DNA from: Eubacterium sp.
GTDB taxonomy: Bacteria; Bacillota; Clostridia; Oscillospirales; Acutalibacteraceae
Direction: 5' to 3'
NCBI GenBank assembly: GCA_022511205.1
Contig: JAFLRY010000007.1
Location: 1 to 57,837 of the forward strand
Length of the DNA stretch: 57,837 bases
This document shows positions 1,264 through 56,981 of this stretch, piece by piece (position 1 is the first letter of the stretch; each line of letters opens with the position of its first letter). The translations under genes and the position numbers were made by a program. The notes under the pieces were generated by a model. The model ran no database searches and was not told the DNA's origin. It saw nothing but the letters and a program-made list of their open reading frames with translations.

Positions 1264-2352
1264 ATGGAATCAGCATTAAAGGAAAAGGCTCTCGGCAAGC
1301 AAAACAACGCCATAGACCTTGCAAAGTTTATCTGCGCTGTTTTCGTTGTGGCCATTCACGTTCCGCCTTTCGGAAGCGCTGACGGTTCAACCGTTGTTAC
1401 CTATCTCAACTTTTTTATTCAGGATTATCTGGCGAGGATCGCGGTTCCGTTTTTCTTCATCACGTCGGGCTATTTTTTGTTTAAGAAAACCGATATAAAA
1501 AACTTTGATATCAAGCCTTCAAAACAATATGTTTTAAGGCTTATAAAGCTTTATCTCATATGGTCCTTAATATATTTTCCTGTTAGGTTGGGAAGCATCT
1601 TTACGGATAAAAAAGGCATCCTTCACGGTATTATTAGTTATTTTAAGGATTTCGTTTTCAGCACGAGCTATTCCCATCTGTGGTATCTGAACGCGCTGAT
1701 TTTCGCAACGATCGTGATATCCTTCCTGCTTTATAAGCGCGTTAAGCCCTTATACATCATAGCGGGAGGCGGGATATTCTATTTCTTAGGGCTTTTCGGT
1801 CAATCCTGGTTTGGGTTTCTTGAACCGCTGAGAGGCACTTTCGTTTGGGATATACTTAAAGCCGTTCAAAGCCTTATCACCACAACGCGGGACGGTCTGT
1901 TTGACGGACTTATCTTCGTAGGGATCGGAATGCTTTTTGCGTATTATGAAATAAAAATATCAAGAAAGTCGGCATTAACGGGGCTTGCGGTTTCGCTGAT
2001 ACTTTTATTTACGGAATCATTCGGCTTTCAGTTCTTAGGATTTTCAAGATCACACGATACTTATTTGTTCTTAGTGCCAACTGCATTTTTCCTGTTCGCC
2101 GTAATTCGTGATATACAGCTTCCGGATAATAGGAATTATAAAAAGATGCGCACATTAAGCTCACTCATTTATTTCATACATCCGTGGATAAAAATAATCC
2201 TCGGCGCTTTGACTTACATCATATTTAAGAAACAGGCAATATTCCTTATAAGCTTTGCTCTTACTTTCGCAATAGCGTATTTTCTTTCGTTAGCAGTTAT
2301 GAAGCTTTCAGAAAAGCCAAAGAGTAAATGGCTTAAAAATCTTTACTCTTAA
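1264..2352 (+). CDS. Membrane acyltransferase, family 3 (OafA/YrhL type)
   Basis: A 362-residue polytopic membrane protein of the acyltransferase-3 family. Members move acyl groups (often O-acetyl or succinyl) onto cell-surface sugars or lipids. The N-terminal signature is AIDLAKFICAVFVVAIHV, whose His (about residue 32) is the conserved family histidine. About ten hydrophobic segments follow, with the typical late IYFIHPW motif near residue 300. It stands alone between a divergent T-box operon and a terminator, so the acceptor cannot be inferred from neighbours. The ribosome site (TTGGGGTA) is weak. Other members of this fold are peptidoglycan O-acetyltransferases and glycopeptide-associated VanT-like membrane domains, but no second catalytic domain is present here. 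Confidence 0.85.
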   Translation: MESALKEKALGKQNNAIDLAKFICAVFVVAIHVPPFGSADGSTVVTYLNFFIQDYLARIAVPFFFITSGYFLFKKTDIKNFDIKPSKQYVLRLIKLYLIWSLIYFPVRLGSIFTDKKGILHGIISYFKDFVFSTSYSHLWYLNALIFATIVISFLLYKRVKPLYIIAGGGIFYFLGLFGQSWFGFLEPLRGTFVWDILKAVQSLITTTRDGLFDGLIFVGIGMLFAYYEIKISRKSALTGLAVSLILLFTESFGFQFLGFSRSHDTYLFLVPTAFFLFAVIRDIQLPDNRNYKKMRTLSSLIYFIHPWIKIILGALTYIIFKKQAIFLISFALTFAIAYFLSLAVMKLSEKPKSKWLKNLYS

Positions 2353-2386
2353 TACCTCTTAACGCTTCACAATTACTTATTAACTA

Positions 2387-2415
2387 AAAAAACTCCCGCT
2401 TTTTCAGCGGGAGCG
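2387..2415. terminator. Bidirectional rho-independent terminator
   Basis: A perfect 8-bp stem (CTCCCGCT at 2393-2400 with AGCGGGAG at 2406-2413) with a 5-nt loop. On the plus strand it closes the acyltransferase gene and is followed by CGTTTTC. On the minus strand it is followed by an uninterrupted run of seven T, so it is stronger in that direction and would end the orphan transcript that starts near 2880. Confidence 0.88.
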
Positions 2416-2880
2416 TTTTCTATATTAAGTTTAACTAGTACATTGGACTAACCTCACACATTTATTTTTTTAATACAATGAAACTCCTAAACAATGGAAT
2501 CACCTTCTTAAAAATAATGCATTTTGATTATATTAGTTAGTGCATCGGACTGTACCTCTTTGAAATATTTTTCTTGAAGATTCCTCTTCAGGCTTTTGCA
2601 GGACAAGCCAAACATAAATTATATATGTGAAATTCAATTGTGTTCGCCTGAGTATTCGTATTGGTTCCTGCCATAACTTTTAATTTGCATTGAATGCTGC
2701 TGCCCGTTATCTTTCTTTACAGATGCTGCCGACAGCCTTTCCGTTATTTACCTGAATACTGAGCAGGCGATTGTCTGATCAGGTTCTACATTAACCATCG
2801 GACAATGGCCCTCCTTTCCTTCATTGAACTTGGAAGAATGATTTTGTTTTTCCTTTATATTTCCTTCCCTTAAGTTCATC
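2414..2880 (-). other. Orphan minus-strand transcription unit without a recognised gene
   Basis: About 470 nt bounded by a strong promoter and a strong terminator, both on the minus strand, with no long ORF. Two short frames can be seen. One is 2748-2798 (16 residues, MVNVEPDQTIACSVFR) behind an AGGAGG site. The other is 2588-2674 (28 residues, starting MAGTNTNTQANTIEFH) with no clear ribosome site. It also holds an imperfect repeat pair (separate entry). It could be a small RNA, a set of tiny ORFs, or the eroded end of a mobile element. I do not recognise any RNA family in it. Confidence 0.5.
2431..2557 (-). repeat. Two imperfect direct repeats with ribosome-site/ATG/stop modules
   Basis: Plus coordinates 2431-2456 and 2531-2557 are imperfect copies exactly 100 bp apart. 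Read on the minus strand, each has GAGG, 8-9 nt containing AGTCC, then ATG, one sense codon and a stop: ATG-TAC-TAG and ATG-CAC-TAA. A third related site at 2796-2815 (AGGAGG...TTGTCCG-ATG) opens the 16-codon frame of the orphan unit. Confidence 0.55.
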
Positions 2881-2883
2881 TAA

Positions 2884-2912
2884 ATAATAGCACACAATTT
2901 ATGCATTGTCAA
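2884..2912 (-). promoter_or_regulatory. Sigma-A promoter of the orphan minus transcript
   Basis: Minus strand: -35 TTGACA (2907-2912), 17-bp spacer, -10 TATTAT (2884-2889). It is almost consensus and points leftward into a region without a gene. Confidence 0.8.
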
Positions 2913-2970
2913 TAGTTTTTTTCAACATTTTTGTAAATAATTATTAATTTTGTACAAGCATATATTTCTA

Positions 2971-2999
2971 TTGACGAAACAACACAAACAGGTTATAAT
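2971..2999 (+). promoter_or_regulatory. Sigma-A promoter of the DUF1292 gene and 6S RNA
   Basis: -35 TTGACG (2971-2976), 17-bp spacer, -10 TATAAT (2994-2999). It lies 60 bp ahead of the DUF1292 start and may also serve the downstream 6S RNA. Confidence 0.8.
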
Positions 3000-3060
3000 A
3001 GAAATGATAGCGGTTTGAGCAAATCACGTTAAACCGCCTTATGAAAGGAATCAGGATACT

Positions 3061-3378
3061 ATGGATAACGAGAAAGAACTTTACGAGCCGGATATTTTAT
3101 CTGTTACCGACGAGAACGGAAATGAAATACTTTTCGAGCTTCTTGAACGGTATGAAACTGACGACGACGTTTACGTTGCCATCACCGAATACCGCGACGA
3201 TGCCGAGGAGATCGTTGAAGCGGATTACGAGGTTATCATTCTCAAGGTGCTTGAGGAAAACGGCGAGGAATATCTTGAAGAGATCGAAGACGAAATGGAA
3301 TATGAGCAGATCGCTGATATCCTTATGGCAAAGGTTGAGGAAAAATACGAGGTTGAATATTTCGAGCCTGAGCAATAA
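3061..3378 (+). CDS. DUF1292 (YrzB-like) small acidic protein
   Basis: A 105-residue, strongly acidic protein matching the DUF1292 pattern: an N-terminal DENGNEILFELLERYE segment, a middle VYVAITEY segment, and an acidic tail. The function of the family is unknown; in Firmicutes it often lies near RNA or translation genes. ATG at 3061 follows AAAGGAATCAGGATACT, an acceptable ribosome site. A second frame over the same bases (3041-3382) is rejected because it lacks a ribosome site and has a composition unlike a real protein. The gene is followed after about 15 bp by the 6S RNA candidate, with no terminator between, so the two may be cotranscribed. Confidence 0.85.
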   Translation: MDNEKELYEPDILSVTDENGNEILFELLERYETDDDVYVAITEYRDDAEEIVEADYEVIILKVLEENGEEYLEEIEDEMEYEQIADILMAKVEEKYEVEYFEPEQ

Positions 3379-3391
3379 TTAACTTGTTTTA

Positions 3392-3578
3392 CGGTCTGTG
3401 CATCTCGACAACCGAAGGCTTTAATAACCCGAACAACTTTTACTATGGGACTTATGCTCGCGCTATGGGTATGCAGACCTCCCGCTTTTGCGGACGTTGG
3501 GAGCACAAAGTATTGCGGATAAGACCCACCTGCTTTAACCGCAGGTTATCTTCAGCTTTCGGCGGATGTGCGGATTTT
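3392..3578 (+). ncRNA. ssrS: 6S RNA candidate
   Basis: 6S RNA mimics an open promoter and binds the housekeeping RNA polymerase. The sequence folds into the 6S plan. A closing stem pairs 3396-3404 with 3565-3573 and CCGAAGGC with GCTTTCGG. A large central bubble follows, with a small hairpin on its 3' side (CCTGC...GCAGG). Next is a terminal stem pairing TGGGACTTATGC with GCGGATAAGACCCA. The apical part holds CTCCC/GGGAG around CCGC-TTTT-GCGG. No ORF fits the 240-nt gap, and a terminator follows. The call rests on this hand-drawn structure; ends are approximate, and no dedicated promoter was convincing. Confidence 0.72.
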
Positions 3579-3588
3579 TAAAAATGAA

Positions 3589-3621
3589 CGGCTGTGCTTA
3601 ATTGCGCAGCCGTGTTTTTTT
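3589..3621 (+). terminator. Terminator after the 6S RNA
   Basis: A 9-bp stem (3589-3597 with 3604-3612, one G-U pair), 6-nt loop, then TGTTTTTTT. The T-run overlaps the stop codon (3620-3622) of the convergent dehydrogenase gene. Confidence 0.88.
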
Positions 3622-4732
3622 AACCAATAATCGATTTGTATAATTCTTTTATTACATTTTCATTAAGTGAAACAGGATTGCTTTTCAATTTTGCAGGGTC
3701 AACTGATTTCGTTAGAATTTCAATATCATTCTCCCCTGCCTTTGGCTTCGGAAGATCAAGGGAATCGAGAAGCTTTTGAAATTTCTCTGCCCCCTGTTCG
3801 GCGCTTTCACATCCAAACAGCGTCGAAAGCTCTTTGAGCATACCGCAAACGTAAGCCTCACCGCGGGGATCGATACAAGTATCGGTATGTTCAACAGTAT
3901 AATGCCAAAGCTTAGAAACTCCGAGCGCCGCTGCATGCCCGTGGGCGAAATTATATAAGCCTGTAAGCTTATAACACATGGCGTGCCCCGCAGTTGTGCC
4001 TGTGATATTTATTGCTTCGCCCGCCGTGAACGCCGCCCAAAGCATTTTTTCATTCCCCTCAGGCTCGTTTGCAAGATAGGAAGCCTTATATTTTAAAACC
4101 TCAGTAATCGCCTTTTCGGCGTATTCCCTGCTCCGCTCGGTTGATTTTACAGACCAGTAGGATTCTATTGCGTGGCAAAGCGCGTCAAGCATCGTTGACT
4201 TCTTATGATAAAGCGGAAGCGTTTCCAAAACTGATGGATCCATAATAACCATTGACGGAATACAGCTTTCGTGGGTAACAGTCAGCTTTTCGCCTTTGTA
4301 ATAAATAATTGCATACTTTGTAGCTTCGCTGCCCGATCCGGCGGTTGTTGGCATAGCGATGAGCGGAATATCGTTTGGAACAATATCCTGCAAAACGTAA
4401 TCCTCATTATCAGACATATTCGCAAACATTTTAATGCACTTGGCAACATCCATACCGCTGCCGCCTCCAATGGCGAAAACAGCGTCACAGGCGTTTTCGT
4501 TGAATATGCGCACGCCCTCAACTACTGATTCATACAAAGGATTCGGCTTAAAATCACTGAATCGAATTATTTTTACTCCAGGTCTTTCTGTTAGCGTGTC
4601 AAAATAGTTTTTAATATTTAAACGATCAAACGATCTGCCGCAGACGAGCATAAGCGTTTTAATATTCAGCTTTTCAAAAAGATTATCAAGCTCACTGAAT
4701 TCACTGTTTAGCGTTATAATATTCTGCTCCAT
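3620..4732 (-). CDS. Iron-containing alcohol dehydrogenase family protein
   Basis: A 370-residue cytoplasmic NAD(P)-dependent, metal-dependent reductase of the type III (Fe) alcohol dehydrogenase family. From the ATG at 4732, GGGSGMD (89-95) and TTAGSGSEAT (129-138) bind the nucleotide. The four metal ligands are present at family spacing: Asp183, His187, His250 and His264. I prefer ATG 4732 over GTG 4741 because AAGGG lies 8 nt ahead of it and it follows the upstream stop by one base. It is the second gene of an operon with an epimerase-like reductase, so both probably act on one carbonyl or sugar-derived substrate. The substrate is unknown; related enzymes reduce butanal, propanediol aldehydes or phosphonoacetaldehyde. 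Confidence 0.88.
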   Translation of the reverse strand: MEQNIITLNSEFSELDNLFEKLNIKTLMLVCGRSFDRLNIKNYFDTLTERPGVKIIRFSDFKPNPLYESVVEGVRIFNENACDAVFAIGGGSGMDVAKCIKMFANMSDNEDYVLQDIVPNDIPLIAMPTTAGSGSEATKYAIIYYKGEKLTVTHESCIPSMVIMDPSVLETLPLYHKKSTMLDALCHAIESYWSVKSTERSREYAEKAITEVLKYKASYLANEPEGNEKMLWAAFTAGEAINITGTTAGHAMCYKLTGLYNFAHGHAAALGVSKLWHYTVEHTDTCIDPRGEAYVCGMLKELSTLFGCESAEQGAEKFQKLLDSLDLPKPKAGENDIEILTKSVDPAKLKSNPVSLNENVIKELYKSIIG

Positions 4733-4733
4733 T

Positions 4734-5777
4734 TTATTCACCCTTCATTCCAATAAGCTGCGCATTACCATCAAAAGCTTCCTTTGAAAGCTTGATTGAA
4801 TCAAAAATAGCGGCTTCAATATCATCCGGCGTGCACCCAAGCTCTGCGCAATCGTCAGTAGGAATAAACAAATTCATTCCCATAATATCAGCAAGACCTA
4901 CAGGATCAATTCCATAATCAACGTTTCTCTTGGCATAATCTCCGCGCATTTTATAGCCAAACGCTTTAAAGGTCCATTTTGGAACGTCAACGATTCTTCT
5001 ATTCGGCGTTCCGTCCATAGCGCGGTAAACTATTTTGAGGAACTTCCTCCAAGTCATATTATAGCAGGAAATTCCGTAGGCACGAAAACGCCCTTCCCCA
5101 TTTAATGAAGCAGAGTACGCATGTTCTGCCGCACCTGCTAATGCTTCACCTGTTTGACGGACTGTGAGCATCGCCGTTCCTCCTGCGGGATACATTGTAA
5201 AGGGCATTTTCTCAAACCGTTTAAGCTGTTCAATAAGAATCACCCAAACAGGTTTTCTGCCGGGCTGAGTTCCGAAAATATACGGAAGCTCCAAAACAGC
5301 AACAGAAAAATCCTTATCGGAATACTTTTCGCAAACCTTTTCCTGATCTATTCGGCTTCTTATATAGGGATGCTTCTCGTAAAGCTTCATATCCGGTTGC
5401 GCCTTATTAAGCCAGGCAAAATATGATCCGCATACAACCGCTCCCTTAATACCGGCCTTTTTCGCAAGTGGCAGATATCTCTCAAGCGGAGCGATATTAT
5501 ACTGATAATATTTATCATAAACAGGAGCAGAAAACTCAACTCTCTCGTCAACGCCTGTGGCAAAAACGAACACGTCACTGCCTTCCATAAGCTTTAAAAT
5601 CTCATCGTCTGATAGTTTATTCGCGTCTTTCAAGATTATTTCCATCTGCTCCGGAAACTCCGCGCCAACAGGAAGCGGAGGAAGTGAGAGCGTTTTAACC
5701 TCGTTTCCCCTATCAATAAGAATCTTAGCCGCGGCAGAACCCAAAAGTCCGGTTCCGCCAATCATAAAAGCTTTCAA
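4734..5777 (-). CDS. NAD-dependent epimerase/dehydratase-like (extended SDR) protein
   Basis: A 347-residue Rossmann-fold protein with the extended SDR start motif GGTGLLGS (residues 7-14). A VVCGSYFAW strand follows in the position of the catalytic Ser. The classical YxxxK pair is not obvious: the corresponding stretch reads YIRSRIDQEK, so the catalytic tyrosine may have moved or activity may differ from sugar epimerases. The start is TTG at 5777 behind AAGGTGATG. It is the first gene of a two-gene operon with the Fe-dehydrogenase, whose ATG lies one base after this stop. Cinnamyl-alcohol or NmrA-type SDRs are alternatives. The metabolic role is not known. Confidence 0.8.
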   Translation of the reverse strand: MKAFMIGGTGLLGSAAAKILIDRGNEVKTLSLPPLPVGAEFPEQMEIILKDANKLSDDEILKLMEGSDVFVFATGVDERVEFSAPVYDKYYQYNIAPLERYLPLAKKAGIKGAVVCGSYFAWLNKAQPDMKLYEKHPYIRSRIDQEKVCEKYSDKDFSVAVLELPYIFGTQPGRKPVWVILIEQLKRFEKMPFTMYPAGGTAMLTVRQTGEALAGAAEHAYSASLNGEGRFRAYGISCYNMTWRKFLKIVYRAMDGTPNRRIVDVPKWTFKAFGYKMRGDYAKRNVDYGIDPVGLADIMGMNLFIPTDDCAELGCTPDDIEAAIFDSIKLSKEAFDGNAQLIGMKGE

Positions 5778-49224: not shown

Positions 49225-50886
49225 TTAAAACGTAACTATAATATCGTCTGCCGAGCCGCCGGGCGGGATCATCGGAAGAACGTTTGAATCGGGCGAAATG
49301 CGGCAATCGATAACCACAGGACCGCCGTATTCAACCGCTTCCTTGATAACGGCGTCTATCTCGTCATTGGTGTTGATACGAAGTCCTTTCACTCCGAACG
49401 CCTCCGCTACCTTAACGAAATCCGTTCTTCTGTTGGGATCGGTATCAGCAAAGCGATTGCCGTAAAACAGCTTCTGCCACTGGCGAACCATACCAAGCAC
49501 CTTGTTGTTCATAATGATCATCACTACGGGAATGTTGTAGGAAGCCATAGTCGCAAGCTCGTTGAGGTTCATATGGAAGCCGCCGTCGCCGGCGAACATA
49601 ACTACTTTTCTATCGGGTCTGCCGTAAGCCGCGCCCATAGCCGCGCCCATGGAATAGCCCATGGTGCCAAGTCCGCCGCTGGTAAGAAGCGTGCGTGGCA
49701 TCTTATATTTATAGAACTGCGCAGCCCAAAGCTGATGCTGACCAACGTCGGTTACGATGATCGTGTCGTCGGGAGTATTTCTGTCTACCGCCTCGATGAC
49801 CTTTTGGGGATTCACGTAATCCTCGATCTGATTCTGAATAAAGGGTCTCTTCCAGCCGTTTATCTCCTCTCTCCACTCAGCATGGGACTGCTTTTCAATA
49901 CTCTCTGTGAGTACGGGAAGCACGTCCTTAAGAGAGCCGCGGAGATGATAATGGGAATATACGTTTTTATCCATTTCGGCAGGGTCGATATCAATATGTA
50001 AAACGTCCGCCTTCGGGGCGAATTTCGTGCGGTTGCCGGCTACTCGGTCTGAGAATCTCGCGCCGCAGGTTATAAGCACGTCGCACTGGGAAGCCGCCTT
50101 GTTTGATTCAAATCTTCCGTGCATACCGATAAGACCGGCATAAAGCTCGTGACTGTTATTGAAAGCGCCGAGACCCATAAGTGAAGAAACTACGGGAGCG
50201 TCCAGCTTTTCGGCAAACGCCTTTATCTCCTCGCTGGCGTTGGCTGAGATCGCGCCGCCGCCGAGATATATAAGAGGCTTCTTGCAGCCGTTAAGCAGCT
50301 TGATGGCTCTTTCAATGCAGCTGTTTTTGGGATATACGTTTTCATCGGGCTGCTGCTTCGGGCAGGGATAGTATTCGCACTCCGCCGCTGTGATATCCTT
50401 TGGAATATCAACGAGAACCGGGCCTTTTCTGCCGCTGATGGCAATTCTGAAGGCGTTTCTTATGGTATCGGCAAGCTCCTCAACGTTTCCCACCATAAAG
50501 TTGTGCTTCGTGATCGGCATAGTAATTCCTTTAATATCCACCTCTTGGAATGAATCACGGCCGATAAGCGCCGTGCCTACGTTACAGGTTATGGCGACTA
50601 CCGGGATAGAATCCATATAAGCAGTTGCGATGCCTGTTACCAGATTGGTTGATCCGGGACCGGAAGTGGCAAAGCAAACGCCCACCTTTCCCGTGGCGCG
50701 GCTATAGCCGTCTGCCGCGTGGGAAGCGCCCTGCTCGTGAGCGGTAAGAATATGATTGAAAGTGTCGCCGTATTTATACAGCTCGTCAAATATATTTAGA
50801 ATAGTTCCGCCGGGGTATCCGAACACAGTATCTACACCCTGCTCCTTAAGCACCTCCAGAACGATTTGTGCGCCGTTTAATTTCAT
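49225..50886 (-). CDS. ilvB: Acetolactate synthase large (catalytic) subunit
   Basis: A 553-residue thiamine-diphosphate enzyme, first common step of valine, leucine and isoleucine synthesis. The TPP-activating Glu is in HEQGASHAADGYSRATG. The FAD/TPP-binding middle domain and GDGGFHMNLNELATM with the NN motif (IIMNNKVLGMVRQWQ) are intact. ATG 50886 has GGAGAGG 5 nt upstream; a longer frame start at 50913 lacks a site. It is the first gene of ilvB-ilvN-leuC-leuD. The leader (about 35 nt) has no T-box or peptide attenuator. Confidence 0.97.
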   Translation of the reverse strand: MKLNGAQIVLEVLKEQGVDTVFGYPGGTILNIFDELYKYGDTFNHILTAHEQGASHAADGYSRATGKVGVCFATSGPGSTNLVTGIATAYMDSIPVVAITCNVGTALIGRDSFQEVDIKGITMPITKHNFMVGNVEELADTIRNAFRIAISGRKGPVLVDIPKDITAAECEYYPCPKQQPDENVYPKNSCIERAIKLLNGCKKPLIYLGGGAISANASEEIKAFAEKLDAPVVSSLMGLGAFNNSHELYAGLIGMHGRFESNKAASQCDVLITCGARFSDRVAGNRTKFAPKADVLHIDIDPAEMDKNVYSHYHLRGSLKDVLPVLTESIEKQSHAEWREEINGWKRPFIQNQIEDYVNPQKVIEAVDRNTPDDTIIVTDVGQHQLWAAQFYKYKMPRTLLTSGGLGTMGYSMGAAMGAAYGRPDRKVVMFAGDGGFHMNLNELATMASYNIPVVMIIMNNKVLGMVRQWQKLFYGNRFADTDPNRRTDFVKVAEAFGVKGLRINTNDEIDAVIKEAVEYGGPVVIDCRISPDSNVLPMIPPGGSADDIIVTF

Positions 50887-50931
50887 AGTATCCTCTCCAA
50901 AACTTTTATACACATAAAAAATTTAATATAT

Positions 50932-51053: not shown

Positions 51054-52625
51054 ATGAAAAAATCAAAATTTTTACTTGCCGTGCTGTTGTCTGTTTCGAT
51101 CGTTTTTCTGAGCGGCTGCGCGAATATTGAAGCATTGTTTGCCGATACAAGCTCCGATTTTTACGAGCTTAAGGCCATTTCCAAAAAAGCCGATATCTAT
51201 GCTTCCGTTGATATCAGCGGGGATAATATTCTTTTCCTTACCGCAAAAGGCTTGAATGATTATGATCTGACCGTTTTTGACGCGGCAACTAATAAAATTA
51301 CCGCTGAGAAAAACATAGAGGGGCTTGATCTTGAATACGTTGCCGGAGCGAAATTCAAAAGCGAAAACGAGATCATCGTTTATGATGAGGGAAGTGAAAA
51401 GGCAGTCACCTTTGATCTCGACTTAAATCAAACGGGAACTGAGGATTACAAATACGTATACTACCGTGATAACGCCCCCGAATCGAGCCTTTTGGACGAT
51501 AATTTTGCTTATGAGGATACCTATGCCTTTACCTATGAGGCGAGCAACTATAATTTGGTATTCTACGATGATTTGGATAAAATCTACGTTTTCAACGGCG
51601 CGAACGAATCCATATATGATTTAAACGGCAAGAAGATGTTTATGGTTGAATATGAGAATTCGGATAACCACGAAGAGGCCAGCGTTAAAAAGATAAACGT
51701 TAAAGATCTTGAAAATAAGCTGTGTATAAACAGTTTTGATCTTGAAAGCGTACCCGCCGGTATTTTCAGCGATATTTTGATAAGTGCGGTCAGTGATAAA
51801 TACGTTTGCTTCGTAAACCGCATTTCAAACGATATTACGGGCGGAGCTATCTCTATTCCTTATATCTGGAAATATACAGAAGCCCCCAAAAACGAAGCCG
51901 CTGATATCAAGATCATGACGGAAGCCGAATTTGAAGCGGAAAACGACAGCATTATCAGCGAGATGAAGAGCAAATACGGCATTGACATAAAATTAAACGA
52001 GCCGACGCAGTTCGGTCATGACGTTGAATGCAACGCAGGCACGCTTCAAATCAACGCCGTGCTTTCCGCTCTTGTTGAATGTCTTGATCTTTTCCCCGAA
52101 AATTTCGTTAAAGAGATATATAAGGATGCTCCCTATTCAGAGGGCTTTCATATTCATATTGTTGATTGGATAGACGGAGCGGACGCTTACGCAAACGATT
52201 TTGCGGATGCGTATGAAATTTGCTTCAGCACCCGTGGTTTCTCCAAAGGTGTTGTTTTCCACGAGCTTATGCACCTTATGGATAACAGAATAATTGCATA
52301 CTATGATGATAAAGGTATGGATTTTCATGATGAATGGTTTAAACTGAATCCCGCCGATTTTGAATACGGCTCTGAAATAGATTTTGATTTTACCGAGGAG
52401 CATTTCGTCAGCTATTATGCTATGACGAATTTTGACGAGGACATTGCCAGCACGTTCCAGGCTATGTATGATGCATATGAGAATGACGGCGATTACAGAT
52501 TTGAGGATTACGAGCACGTTAGAGCGAAGGTAGATTTGATTTGCGAAGCCATACGCAAGGCATTCCCCAGCATGGCAAACGCGGATAAGGTTTGCTGGGA
52601 AAAATACGTTGACTTTATCAAATAG
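51054..52625 (+). CDS. Lipoprotein with C-terminal zinc-metalloprotease domain, paralog 1
   Basis: A 523-residue surface lipoprotein. The signal ends in lipobox LSGC (Cys about residue 22). Residues about 40-290 are repeated beta strands with aromatic/Asp-rich turns (VDISGDNILFLTA, YDLTVFDA, YNLVFYDDLDKIYVFN), suggestive of a beta-propeller. The C-terminal domain (about 330-523) has HELMH at 403-407 and a downstream DEDIASTF whose Glu462 could be the third zinc ligand. Before it lie WFKLNPADFEYGSE and EEHFVSYYAMT. This pattern recalls gluzincins and putative zinc-binding metallopeptidases of Peptidase_Mx1 type. Substrate unknown. First of three tandem copies. Confidence 0.75.
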   Translation: MKKSKFLLAVLLSVSIVFLSGCANIEALFADTSSDFYELKAISKKADIYASVDISGDNILFLTAKGLNDYDLTVFDAATNKITAEKNIEGLDLEYVAGAKFKSENEIIVYDEGSEKAVTFDLDLNQTGTEDYKYVYYRDNAPESSLLDDNFAYEDTYAFTYEASNYNLVFYDDLDKIYVFNGANESIYDLNGKKMFMVEYENSDNHEEASVKKINVKDLENKLCINSFDLESVPAGIFSDILISAVSDKYVCFVNRISNDITGGAISIPYIWKYTEAPKNEAADIKIMTEAEFEAENDSIISEMKSKYGIDIKLNEPTQFGHDVECNAGTLQINAVLSALVECLDLFPENFVKEIYKDAPYSEGFHIHIVDWIDGADAYANDFADAYEICFSTRGFSKGVVFHELMHLMDNRIIAYYDDKGMDFHDEWFKLNPADFEYGSEIDFDFTEEHFVSYYAMTNFDEDIASTFQAMYDAYENDGDYRFEDYEHVRAKVDLICEAIRKAFPSMANADKVCWEKYVDFIK

Positions 52626-52662
52626 AATTCTTATTTCACAGTAAAGTAAAGAGGCGAACTCT

Positions 52663-54234
52663 ATGCGCAAATTAAGACCGATATTAGCTGTCATCGTTGC
52701 GTTATCCATTCTTTTACTTAGCGGATGCGCGGATATTCAGGCGCTTTTTTCTAACACCGATTCCGATTTTTACGAGATAAAAGCAATTTCGGACAAAGCC
52801 GAAATTTACAACTCCATCGATATCAGCGGAGATAATATTTTGCTTCTCACCGCAAGCGGTATAGAAAACTATAAGCTGACCGTTTACGATGCGAAAAACA
52901 ATAAAATAACCGCCGAAGTGATCCTTAACGACTGCCCGCTTGATTTCATTGCAGGCGCTAAATTCAAAAGCGAAAATGAAATAATCGTATATGATGACGG
53001 AAATGACGATGCCGTAATTTATGACCTTGCCTTGAATCAAACAGGAACAACGGAATACGTTAATACCGATAATTACGATTCAGCGCCGGAATCCGGTTTA
53101 CTTAACGATTCCTTTTCGTTTTATGACACCTACGCTTATTTCAATCAGGGAGATAATTGTTATTTCTTATTCTATGATGATCCGGAAAGCGTTTACGTTT
53201 TTGACGGCACAGACGAAACGATTTACTGCGCAGACGGTAAGAATCTGTTTACAGAGGAAGTAACGTATTCCAAGGAGAATGACAGCTCAAGCGCAACGGT
53301 TTACGTTAAGGACGTAGAAAGCGGGCTTTGCGTGAACAAAATGGAGCTTGAAGATATACCTGGCGATTTGTTCAACAATATACTTGCAAGCGCAATCAGC
53401 GATAAATACGTTTGCTTTGCCAACCACGTTTCAAACAATAACACAGGCGGAAGCGAAACCGCTCTTTATCTCTGGAAATATGCCGAGTCGCCGACTAACG
53501 AAAAAATTGAAATAAAATCAATGACTGAGAGCGAGCTGCTTGAGGATAACGAAAGAATGATAAGCGAGCTTCACGGTACATACGGCATAAACGTATATCC
53601 AAATAAAAAGCCTATTACCGGCTATGACGTTGAGCTTGGCGTACCTCCCATCAGGATAAACAACGCTCTTACCCAGCTTAGCGCCTGCCTTGCTCTCTTC
53701 CCCGAGAATTTCATTCAAGAGATATATAAGGATGCGGAATACGTCAATAATTTTAATATTTATATTGTTGACTATATCGACGGCGCAACCGCGTTTGCAA
53801 TTGACTTTTTAGAGGATTACGAGATTTGCTTTGACAGCCGCGGAGGCTTCTCTAAAACCGTTGTTTTTCACGAACTGATGCATCTTATTGATAACAGGAT
53901 AATTACGTATTATGAAGAAAACGGCAAGGATTTTATCAGTGAATGGAAAAAGCTGAATCCCGCTGATTTTGAATACGGATCCGAAGTTGATTATGATAAC
54001 CCCGAGGAGCATTTTGTTAGCTTTTATGCTATGACCACCATTGACGAGGATCTGGCGGACACTTTCCAGACCATGTATGAGGCATATATTTTCGAGGGTG
54101 ACCATAGATTAAAGGATTACGAGCACGTTAAGAAAAAAGCCGTTTTGCTTTGCGAAGCGATACGCGAAGCGTTCCCCAGCATGGCAAACGCAGATGAGGT
54201 TTGCTGGGAGAAATATATTGACTTAAGCAAATAA
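52663..54234 (+). CDS. Lipoprotein with C-terminal zinc-metalloprotease domain, paralog 2
   Basis: 523 residues, same length and layout as its two neighbours. Lipobox LSGC; beta-rich N-terminal region; HELMH at 403-407; putative third ligand in DEDLADTF. The C-terminal domain is the best conserved part (FHELMHLIDNRIITYY, KLNPADFEYGSE, EEHFVSFYAMT), while the middle (about 140-330) differs in sequence and some loops. The motif around the zinc site has one extra Gly (SRGGFSK) compared with copies 1 and 3. It starts 37 bp after copy 1 behind AAAGAGG. The first 85 nt are nearly identical to copy 3, including silent positions. Confidence 0.75.
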   Translation: MRKLRPILAVIVALSILLLSGCADIQALFSNTDSDFYEIKAISDKAEIYNSIDISGDNILLLTASGIENYKLTVYDAKNNKITAEVILNDCPLDFIAGAKFKSENEIIVYDDGNDDAVIYDLALNQTGTTEYVNTDNYDSAPESGLLNDSFSFYDTYAYFNQGDNCYFLFYDDPESVYVFDGTDETIYCADGKNLFTEEVTYSKENDSSSATVYVKDVESGLCVNKMELEDIPGDLFNNILASAISDKYVCFANHVSNNNTGGSETALYLWKYAESPTNEKIEIKSMTESELLEDNERMISELHGTYGINVYPNKKPITGYDVELGVPPIRINNALTQLSACLALFPENFIQEIYKDAEYVNNFNIYIVDYIDGATAFAIDFLEDYEICFDSRGGFSKTVVFHELMHLIDNRIITYYEENGKDFISEWKKLNPADFEYGSEVDYDNPEEHFVSFYAMTTIDEDLADTFQTMYEAYIFEGDHRLKDYEHVKKKAVLLCEAIREAFPSMANADEVCWEKYIDLSK

Positions 54235-54274
54235 ATTTTTTAATATTGATGAAAGGATATAAAGGAGAAATACC

Positions 54275-55843
54275 ATGCGTAAATTAAAACCGATATTAGC
54301 TGTCATCGTTGCGTTATCCATTCTTTTACTTAGCGGTTGCGCAAATATTCAGGCGCTTTTAACAAAAAGCGATTCTGACTTTTATGAGATAAAAGCCCTT
54401 TCCGACATTGCTGAATTGTACTGCTCCGTAGATATCAGCGGAGACAACATTCTGTTTCTTACCGCAAGCGGTTTAGATCCCTACGTGCTTTCCGTTTACG
54501 ACGTTGAGAAAAACAGTATCGTTGCGCAAAAGGATATGGCTGATTCCACCCTTGAGTACATTTCGGGAGCAAAATTCGGCGATAACGACCGTATCCTTGT
54601 TTATGACGAAGGAAATGAAAAGGCAATTACATACGACCTCAGCCTTAATGAAACGGGAACTATAGAGTATCCGTACGTGGACTATCATGATAACGCACCT
54701 GAAGCAAGCTTTTTTAACGACACTTTTGTTTATGAGGAATCATACGCCTATTCCTACGAGGGTGACGACTATTGCTTAGTACTCTACGATGATCTTGAAA
54801 ACGTCTATATTTTTGACAGCACAGACGAATCCATCTATGGAGTTGACGGCAAAAAGCTGCTCACAGTTGAATCAACGTATACCGAAAGCAATGATACATG
54901 GAATACAAAGGTAAACGTTAAGGATATTGAAAACAGTCTCTGTATAAACAGCTTGAATCTTGGAATTACATCATCGGGTATTTTCAATGATTTTTACAAC
55001 TCCGCGATCAGCGATAAATACGTTTGCTTTATAAACCGCATTTATAACGACGTTACAGGCGGATCGATCACTACTCCCTATCTCTGGAAATATACCGAAT
55101 CTCCCTCAAACGAAGCGATAGACATAAAAGCTTTGAATGAGGAAAAAATGCTTGAGGAAAACGAAAAAATTATAGATTCGATCATGGAAAAATACGGCGT
55201 TAACGTGTTTATCAATAAAGAACCGCAGTTCGGCTTTAGCGTTGATCTCACCGCGTCCACTCTTCAAGTACACCACGTTCTTACAAATCTTGAAGAATGC
55301 CTTGATCTCTTCCCCGAAAATTTCGTTAAGGAAGTTTATAAAGACGCGGAATACGTTAACGGGCTTAACATACATATCGTAGAAAATATTGACGGCGCAA
55401 GCGCCTTCGCGAATGACTTTGCAGAGAATTATGAAATCTGCTTCGGTTGCCGCGGATTTAGCAGAAGCGTTGTTTTCCACGAGTTTATGCACTTGATCGA
55501 TAACAGGATCCAAACTTATTACGATGATAATAATATGGATTTTTACGATTTATGGTGGAAGCTCAACCCCGAAGATTTCGAATATGGCTCTGAAACTGAC
55601 TATGAGCCTTACGAGGAGCATTTCATAAGCTATTATGCTATGACTAACGTTGGCGAGGATATGGCGGACACCTTCCAGGCAATGTTTGAAGCTTATGAAA
55701 ACAATGGCGACGAAAGATTTTCGAAATATGAAAACGTCGGCAAAAAGGCGGCTCTCATCTGCGAAGCGATCCGCAGAGCTTTCCCCTGTATGGCAACTTC
55801 TAAAGAAGCATGTTGGGAGAAATACATAGATCTTAATAAATAA
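54275..55843 (+). CDS. Lipoprotein with C-terminal zinc-metalloprotease domain, paralog 3
   Basis: 522 residues, same architecture. The zinc motif is HEFMH (402-406), where copies 1 and 2 have HELMH; the putative third ligand is in GEDMADTF. The middle insert resembles copy 1 more than copy 2 (YTESPSNEAIDIKAL, FPENFVKEVYKDAEYVNG). It starts 40 bp after copy 2 with AAAGGAGAAATACC. ychF begins 43 bp after its stop with no terminator between, so the message may continue. Cys residues near CFGCRGFSR are specific to this copy and could affect folding. Confidence 0.75.
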   Translation: MRKLKPILAVIVALSILLLSGCANIQALLTKSDSDFYEIKALSDIAELYCSVDISGDNILFLTASGLDPYVLSVYDVEKNSIVAQKDMADSTLEYISGAKFGDNDRILVYDEGNEKAITYDLSLNETGTIEYPYVDYHDNAPEASFFNDTFVYEESYAYSYEGDDYCLVLYDDLENVYIFDSTDESIYGVDGKKLLTVESTYTESNDTWNTKVNVKDIENSLCINSLNLGITSSGIFNDFYNSAISDKYVCFINRIYNDVTGGSITTPYLWKYTESPSNEAIDIKALNEEKMLEENEKIIDSIMEKYGVNVFINKEPQFGFSVDLTASTLQVHHVLTNLEECLDLFPENFVKEVYKDAEYVNGLNIHIVENIDGASAFANDFAENYEICFGCRGFSRSVVFHEFMHLIDNRIQTYYDDNNMDFYDLWWKLNPEDFEYGSETDYEPYEEHFISYYAMTNVGEDMADTFQAMFEAYENNGDERFSKYENVGKKAALICEAIRRAFPCMATSKEACWEKYIDLNK

Positions 55844-55886: not shown

Positions 55887-56981
55887 ATGAAATTAGGAAT
55901 CGTAGGACTTCCAAACGTAGGAAAAAGCACGCTTTTTAACGCGATAACAAACGCGGGCGCACAGAGCGCAAACTACCCTTTTTGCACTATTGAGCCAAAC
56001 GTGGGTATGGTTTCCGTGCCTGATGAAAGGCTCGATAAACTTGCAGAAATGTATCAGCCCGATAAATTTACGCCTGCCACCATTGAATTCGTAGACATAG
56101 CAGGTCTCGTTAAGGGCGCTTCCAAGGGAGAAGGCTTGGGAAACAAGTTCCTCAGCCACATCCGCGAGGTAGACGCTGTTATCCACGTTGTAAGATGCTT
56201 TGAAAACGACGATATCACCCATGTTGACGGTTCGATAGACCCCGCCCGAGACATTGAAACAATAAATCTTGAGCTTGTGCTTGCCGACCTTGATATACTC
56301 TCACGGCGTATCGACAACAAGAAAAAAGCCCTTAAGGGCGACAAAACCATTGCCGCAGAGGTTGAATTCCTCGAAAGGCTTTACGGCGAAATGGAGGAAG
56401 GCAAAACCGCGAGATCTGTTGAGATTTCCGAGGACGAGCAGGAATTCCTAAAAGAGGTTTCCCTGCTTACGATCAAGCCGGTTATCTACGCCTGCAATAT
56501 GAGCGAGGATGATTTCGCAAACGGCATAGACAGCAACAAAAATTTCAATATCGTTAAGGAAATCGCCGCTGAGGAAGGCGCTGAGACGCTTCCCATCTGC
56601 GCAGAAATGGAAGCGGAGATCGCAACGCTGGAGGAAGAGGAAAAGGAAATTTTCCTTGCCGATATGGGGCTTGAGAAAAGCGGACTTGACAGGCTTATCA
56701 AAAAGAGCTACCACCTGCTCGGTCTTATTTCCTACCTCACTGCGGGCAAAAAGGAAGTCAGAGCGTGGACGATCCGTGAGGGCACAAAGGCTCCTCAGGC
56801 AGCAGGAAAGATCCACTCCGATTTTGAGCGCGGCTTTATAAGAGCGGAGATCGTACCCTTTGATGAGCTTGCCAAAAACGGAAGCCTCACCGCTTGCCGC
56901 GATAAGGGGCTTATCAGAAGCGAAGGCAAGGAATACGTTATGAAGGACGGAGACGTTGTTGAATTCCGCTTCAACGTATAA
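55887..56981 (+). CDS. ychF: Ribosome-associated ATPase YchF/OLA1
   Basis: A 364-residue Obg-family NTPase that prefers ATP. The P-loop is GLPNVGKST; switch regions include FVDIAGLVKGASKGEGLGN. The nucleotide-specificity motif is YACNMSED in place of NKxD. A helical insert (about 130-200) and the C-terminal TGS domain (about 280-364, LISYLTAGKKEVRAW) are present. ATG 55887 follows ACGGAGAAATAAAAACAT. Ordinary and universally conserved. Confidence 0.96.
   Translation: MKLGIVGLPNVGKSTLFNAITNAGAQSANYPFCTIEPNVGMVSVPDERLDKLAEMYQPDKFTPATIEFVDIAGLVKGASKGEGLGNKFLSHIREVDAVIHVVRCFENDDITHVDGSIDPARDIETINLELVLADLDILSRRIDNKKKALKGDKTIAAEVEFLERLYGEMEEGKTARSVEISEDEQEFLKEVSLLTIKPVIYACNMSEDDFANGIDSNKNFNIVKEIAAEEGAETLPICAEMEAEIATLEEEEKEIFLADMGLEKSGLDRLIKKSYHLLGLISYLTAGKKEVRAWTIREGTKAPQAAGKIHSDFERGFIRAEIVPFDELAKNGSLTACRDKGLIRSEGKEYVMKDGDVVEFRFNV

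Follow-up and report, generated by a model that had tools for sequence, protein, structure and literature searches.

Three tandem lipoprotein genes of a Eubacterium sp. encode putative propeller-bearing zinc endopeptidases and derive from one gene triplicated in place

The closest described counterparts of the proteins reported here are BACCAC_01431 (PDB 4l7a), the type of MEROPS family M93 (PF15890, Peptidase_Mx1); the catalytic domain of anthrax lethal factor; and the Pro-Pro endopeptidases (PPEPs) PPEP-1, PPEP-2 and PPEP-3 (Pfam ATLF), which we take to belong to MEROPS family M34. Two further families, NF047804 (LIC13305 family lipoprotein) and TIGR04549 (LP_HExxH_w_tonB), are lipoproteins by name. 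Here we describe a tandem triplet of genes from Eubacterium sp. (assembly GCA_022511205.1, contig JAFLRY010000007.1), a bacterium whose habitat is probably the gut of an animal, located at positions 51,054 to 55,843 of the 57,837 nt stretch that was analysed (the window). The products are predicted lipoproteins in which a beta-propeller precedes a zincin domain.

The zincin of copy 3, the last gene of the triplet, is modelled with the fold of BACCAC_01431, but the 4l7a chain of approximately 260 residues is too short to include the propeller that the window proteins have. The NF047804 and TIGR04549 models (274 and 261 positions) describe lipoproteins like those of the window, yet are also too short for a propeller. 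The lethal factor catalytic domain resembles the copy 3 zincin in fold, whereas the window proteins are putatively anchored, propeller-bearing lipoproteins in which no toxin-delivery part was seen, and the shared fold does not indicate a toxin function. The PPEPs share the zincin fold and the spacing of a Tyr and a Glu with the window proteins. However, the stretch from HExxH to this Tyr is 15 residues shorter in PPEP-3, the window proteins add a propeller and a predicted lipid anchor, and no substrate gene adjoins the triplet, whose neighbours we read as ilvB and ychF. According to PMC12828418, the third zinc ligand of PPEP-3 is Glu197 and its oxyanion residue is Tyr190, and in PPEP-1 the equivalent positions are Tyr178 and one of Glu184 and Glu185. 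It should be noted that PPEP-3 residue numbers in PDB titles run one lower than in that report.

All three genes lie head to tail on the forward strand: copy 1 (M1; 51054..52625, 523 aa), copy 2 (M2; 52663..54234, 523 aa) and copy 3 (M3; 54275..55843, 522 aa), with spacers of 37 bp between copies 1 and 2 and 40 bp between copies 2 and 3. The open reading frames (ORFs) are intact and bear out the gene lengths and gaps given in a preliminary description of the locus. Each protein begins with a signal peptide carrying the lipobox pattern LSGC, with Cys22 encoded at 51117..51119 (copy 1), 52726..52728 (copy 2) and 54338..54340 (copy 3), and is predicted on this basis to be a lipoprotein, as previously proposed. 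Copy 3 shares 58% identity with each of copies 1 and 2. With identity this low (~58%) and all copies on a single 63-kb contig, misassembly or a collapse of strains was ruled out.

An AlphaFold model of copy 3, the copy used for structure modelling (predicted local distance difference test, pLDDT, 89.5), consists of an N-terminal beta-propeller and a C-terminal zincin. The modelled propeller covers residues ~34–276 (54374..55102), with approximately five blades judging from the list of strands, and corresponds to the beta-rich N-terminal region noticed in the preliminary description; in copy 1, a beta-rich part likewise lies between lipobox and zincin. Modelled alone (residues 276–519, 55100..55831; pLDDT 93.0), the zincin of copy 3 shares the fold of the solved structure 4l7a and also resembles the lethal factor catalytic domain and the PPEPs. 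The structural comparison proposed earlier for the triplet was thus made with copy 3.

The HExxH motif reads HELMH in copies 1 (52260..52274) and 2 (53869..53883) and HEFMH in copy 3 (55478..55492), starting at residues 403, 403 and 402, respectively. The probable third zinc ligand is the Glu 59 residues past the first His, at residues 462 (52437..52439), 462 (54046..54048) and 461 (55655..55657). Seven residues before it stands an invariant Tyr, Tyr455 in copy 1 (52416..52418; 54025..54027 in copy 2 and 55634..55636 in copy 3), which by its spacing would correspond to the oxyanion Tyr of PPEP-3. The invariant columns of a 26-member alignment, in copy 3 numbering, are H402, E403, H406, Y454, E461, D462, A464 and F467. 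We further compared 70 distinct relatives, obtained from 82 aligned hits by removal of identical or contained rows; the pool represents part of the fetched loci and includes some close kin. The Tyr and Glu columns were seven apart in all 70, and the complete catalytic set of H, E, H, Y and E was intact in 69 of them and in all three window copies, which agrees with the earlier assignment of a C-terminal zinc domain with Glu462 as third ligand. The HExxH motif with its conserved downstream Glu points to the gluzincin clan MA(E), and the Tyr lying seven residues ahead of that Glu is the feature expected of M34/ATLF. The sole exception among the 70 is L096, a 413-aa open frame of genome G542 from the same order, in which H, E, H, Y and E are replaced by Y, Y, Y, F and F. 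L096 is membrane-anchored, its N-terminal part is too short for a propeller of the usual kind and, judged from its residues, it is a natural pseudoenzyme (pseudoprotease).

With copy 3 as query, matches were found in 9 of the 200 genomes sampled from the taxonomic family and in 19 of the 80 from the genus. A profile built from the C-terminal domain (A4), which is more sensitive and corresponds to a search suggested in the preliminary description, matched 20 of the 80 genus genomes, 31 of the 295 sampled from the order, or about a tenth, and 2 of the 398 sampled from the phylum; the window's own genome is counted throughout. One of the 19, G261, matched only weakly and outside the zincin, and is absent from the 20. 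The 26 rows of alignments A3 and A4 comprise the three window proteins and 23 of 27 loci, L049 being omitted as a near-duplicate and L050, L056 and L062 as fragments. Since the profile matches a quarter of the genus genomes and the alignment contains invariant residues, the domain is not a chance resemblance. Record titles of the relatives name rumen, deer, horse and other animal metagenome-assembled genomes of Clostridia, with a few Lachnospiraceae and one each of Oscillospiraceae, Erysipelotrichaceae and Tenericutes. In one scan of viral contigs, none of the 174 pattern matches was a relative, and there was therefore no sign of phage origin. A pattern search for related loci with copy 3 alone yielded 45 hits, none of them relatives.

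The proteins passed none of the curated models that were tried. Copy 3 scored 20.2 bits against PF15890, under its cut-off of 25.6, and copies 1 and 2 gave no hit; a whole-genome search with this model returned three weak matches, none above the cut-off. None of the three window proteins matched Pfam ATLF at E≤10, and phmmer with copy 3 against PDB sequences gave no match at the same threshold. The best NCBIfam match of the core was NF047804, at 32–34 bits in the three copies (E 1.4e-8 to 6.8e-8) against a cut-off of 250, and NF047804 or TIGR04549 was the best such match in 23 of the 26 aligned members. Membership of an already characterized family was therefore not found, and the profile scores suggest an unnamed clade of known chemistry. 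Among the open-access papers listed in searches, we recognized no study devoted to this family or to clostridial proteins in which a propeller is joined to this zincin, in line with the earlier impression of an undescribed system; this is weak evidence of absence, as subscription papers fall mostly outside such a search. The gene family is real and well formed, a known kind of enzyme in a form that seems undescribed, and its members combine a propeller with a protease fold that is otherwise familiar from a toxin and a Clostridioides difficile adhesion switch.

We consider it probable that the three proteins are surface-tethered, propeller-docked zinc endopeptidases that make limited cuts, encoded by a gene that was triplicated in place and later underwent gene conversion in the signal-peptide region. 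A lipid on Cys22 would anchor each protein to the membrane. The propeller, of approximately 240 residues, would most likely dock a protein substrate or partner, and C-terminal to it the gluzincin domain, with the fold of BACCAC_01431, lethal factor and the PPEPs, would hold zinc through both His of HExxH and the Glu 59 residues past the first of them. The Glu of HExxH would act as the base, and the invariant Tyr would stabilize the oxyanion. Given the proposed docking by the propeller, the enzyme may cleave a surface or near-surface protein at few sites rather than in bulk. Anatomy, fold, catalytic motif, synteny and clade are results of computation, from which zinc binding, activity, limited cleavage and docking are inferred. 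According to PMC11460543, CD1597, which joins an extra N-terminal domain to a PPEP-like domain, was inactive on Pro-Pro peptides, and for this reason caution is needed in calling such proteins active. If they are active, they would give gut bacteria a simple means to edit surface proteins, and the triplet supplies three natural variants for assay.

The triplet lies between a divergent upstream gene (49225..50913, reverse strand), which we take to be ilvB, encoding the large subunit of acetolactate synthase, and a downstream gene (55887..56981, forward strand) for what is presumably a YchF/Obg-type GTPase; both serve as markers of a conserved locus. Eighteen genus stretches were fetched, and six of them (L022–L027) hold a single copy between ilvB, on the opposite strand, and downstream ychF. 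L030 has one copy beside ychF at a contig end, and in the remaining 11 the gene is located elsewhere. In the tree, the window copies group as a single clade (support 100/99) with unresolved internal order. Because this place is occupied by a single copy in six relatives, and the window copies are monophyletic, the triplet is an in-place triplication of one syntenic gene. In the survey of copy number and neighbourhood that had been proposed, adjacent copies were found in only 1 of 20 genus genomes with the family, that of the window; G229 holds two copies on different contigs. A conserved three-gene system was rejected, since the triplet is local to the window genome and derived from a single syntenic gene. 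The triplet itself is a local duplication and looks ordinary.

Copies 2 and 3 show probable traces of later exchange. Their first 90 nt (52663..52752 and 54275..54364), over the signal peptide, are 91% identical, compared with 66% over the rest, and include a 48-bp exact run, a length not attained in any of 2000 codon shuffles; in the other two pairs the longest run is 20 bp, which is ordinary. This tract is probably the product of gene conversion.

The triplication may have been a matter of gene dosage, with one activity retained in triplicate to raise its amount, or with copies drifting towards loss. The restriction of adjacent copies to one genus genome, the conversion between copies 2 and 3 and pairwise ratios of non-synonymous to synonymous substitution rates (dN/dS) of 0.13–0.29 where computable (several other dS values were saturated) are consistent with this explanation. 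However, a residue difference of more than 40% is old for pure dosage, and conversion was seen over the signal peptide only. We regard dosage as possible, but lean against it.

A second explanation is that the three copies are isoenzymes that share one chemistry but differ in target, each propeller binding its own protein. All three copies are intact with the motif unchanged, and the catalytic part is more conserved than the remainder, as first described: identity over the three copy pairs is 50–57% for residues 25–395 and 66–71% for residues 396–522. The further claim that this pattern signifies a different target for each copy gained no clear support, as pairs of single-copy relatives match the copies. 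The ratio of propeller to core distance is 1.94 for copies 1 and 2, exceeding the 95% point of 63 other pairs (median 1.43, 5–95% 1.00–1.70), and 1.49 and 1.60 for the other two copy pairs. Yet single-copy pairs attain 2.10 (L026/L027) and 1.97 (L029/L031), and 11 pairs of similar core distance have a median of 1.48 (5–95% 0.95–2.03); L034, L036 and L040 were excluded from the comparison for their long branches. Nor is there a clear excess of dN/dS in the propeller: it is 0.17–0.19 for the copies, and among five pairs of relatives it is 0.11–0.18 in four, with saturation in the fifth; because dS is near saturation, positive selection that was weak or old would escape notice. Two copy ratios are thus ordinary and the third is high but matched, so that separate targets are neither shown nor excluded, and we consider three targets improbable. 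The bolder proposal of a new family of propeller-guided, surface-anchored peptidases of the lethal factor/PPEP fold in gut Clostridia, with one locus expanded into three isoenzymes, each cleaving its own surface or host protein, is unlikely when taken as a whole.

The same proteins could instead be broad, degradative surface peptidases with a nutritional role. Distant relatives (TIGR04549) bear a name that marks them as lipoproteins linked with substrate import, many relatives are of gut or rumen origin by record title, and transporter genes, read by eye, lie near L099, L103 and L108. No uptake partner recurred across the clustered loci, where not all neighbours are annotated, and the nearest characterized folds, lethal factor and the PPEPs, are presumably site-specific; a nutritional role is therefore doubtful. 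Site-specific, surface-tethered zinc endopeptidases remain the most likely interpretation. It is very improbable that the zincin fold here serves another metal-dependent chemistry, as in ChlB, whose HExxH domain (structure 8s5f) is titled an alpha-ketoglutarate-dependent oxygenase.

No functional partner emerged from the neighbourhoods, not all of which are annotated: the neighbours vary between subgroups and several are housekeeping genes, presumably including tRNA nucleotidyltransferase-like and NAD-epimerase-like genes. A scan for promoters and terminators was uninformative (21 found against 14.8±4.1 expected, and 5 against 4.5±2.1). Adjacent pairs occur elsewhere in the family, in G031 (L041), G312 (two hits 2 kb apart) and G857 (two hits <4 kb apart). 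The two members in L041 (4726–6834 and 6877–8973) are 42 bp apart and belong to another genus of the family, so tandem duplication of the gene has happened more than once. Gene picking at the loci kept the longest ORFs and can miss real genes in G+C-rich loci, as with the second G312 copy in L100.

The window's genome also encodes a fourth, distant homologue on another contig (L099:4857–6764, G000:C1), of 635 aa and with a longer N-terminal part. A subgroup of relatives (L032:1699–3858, L033:4948–7080, L035:4151–6316 and L037:36–1070) has a C-terminal extension of ~180 aa, with Pfam fn3 in two aligned members; the lipobox is absent from the three members with a complete N-terminus. This subgroup adjoins a transglutaminase-like protein with an FN3-like end, both named by eye. 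Finally, L061:278–1969 is a member with an unusual N-terminal part, and the next gene (2042–5578) encodes a protein of 1178 aa with what we take to be an amidase-like region; the two proteins appear to share repeats of one kind.
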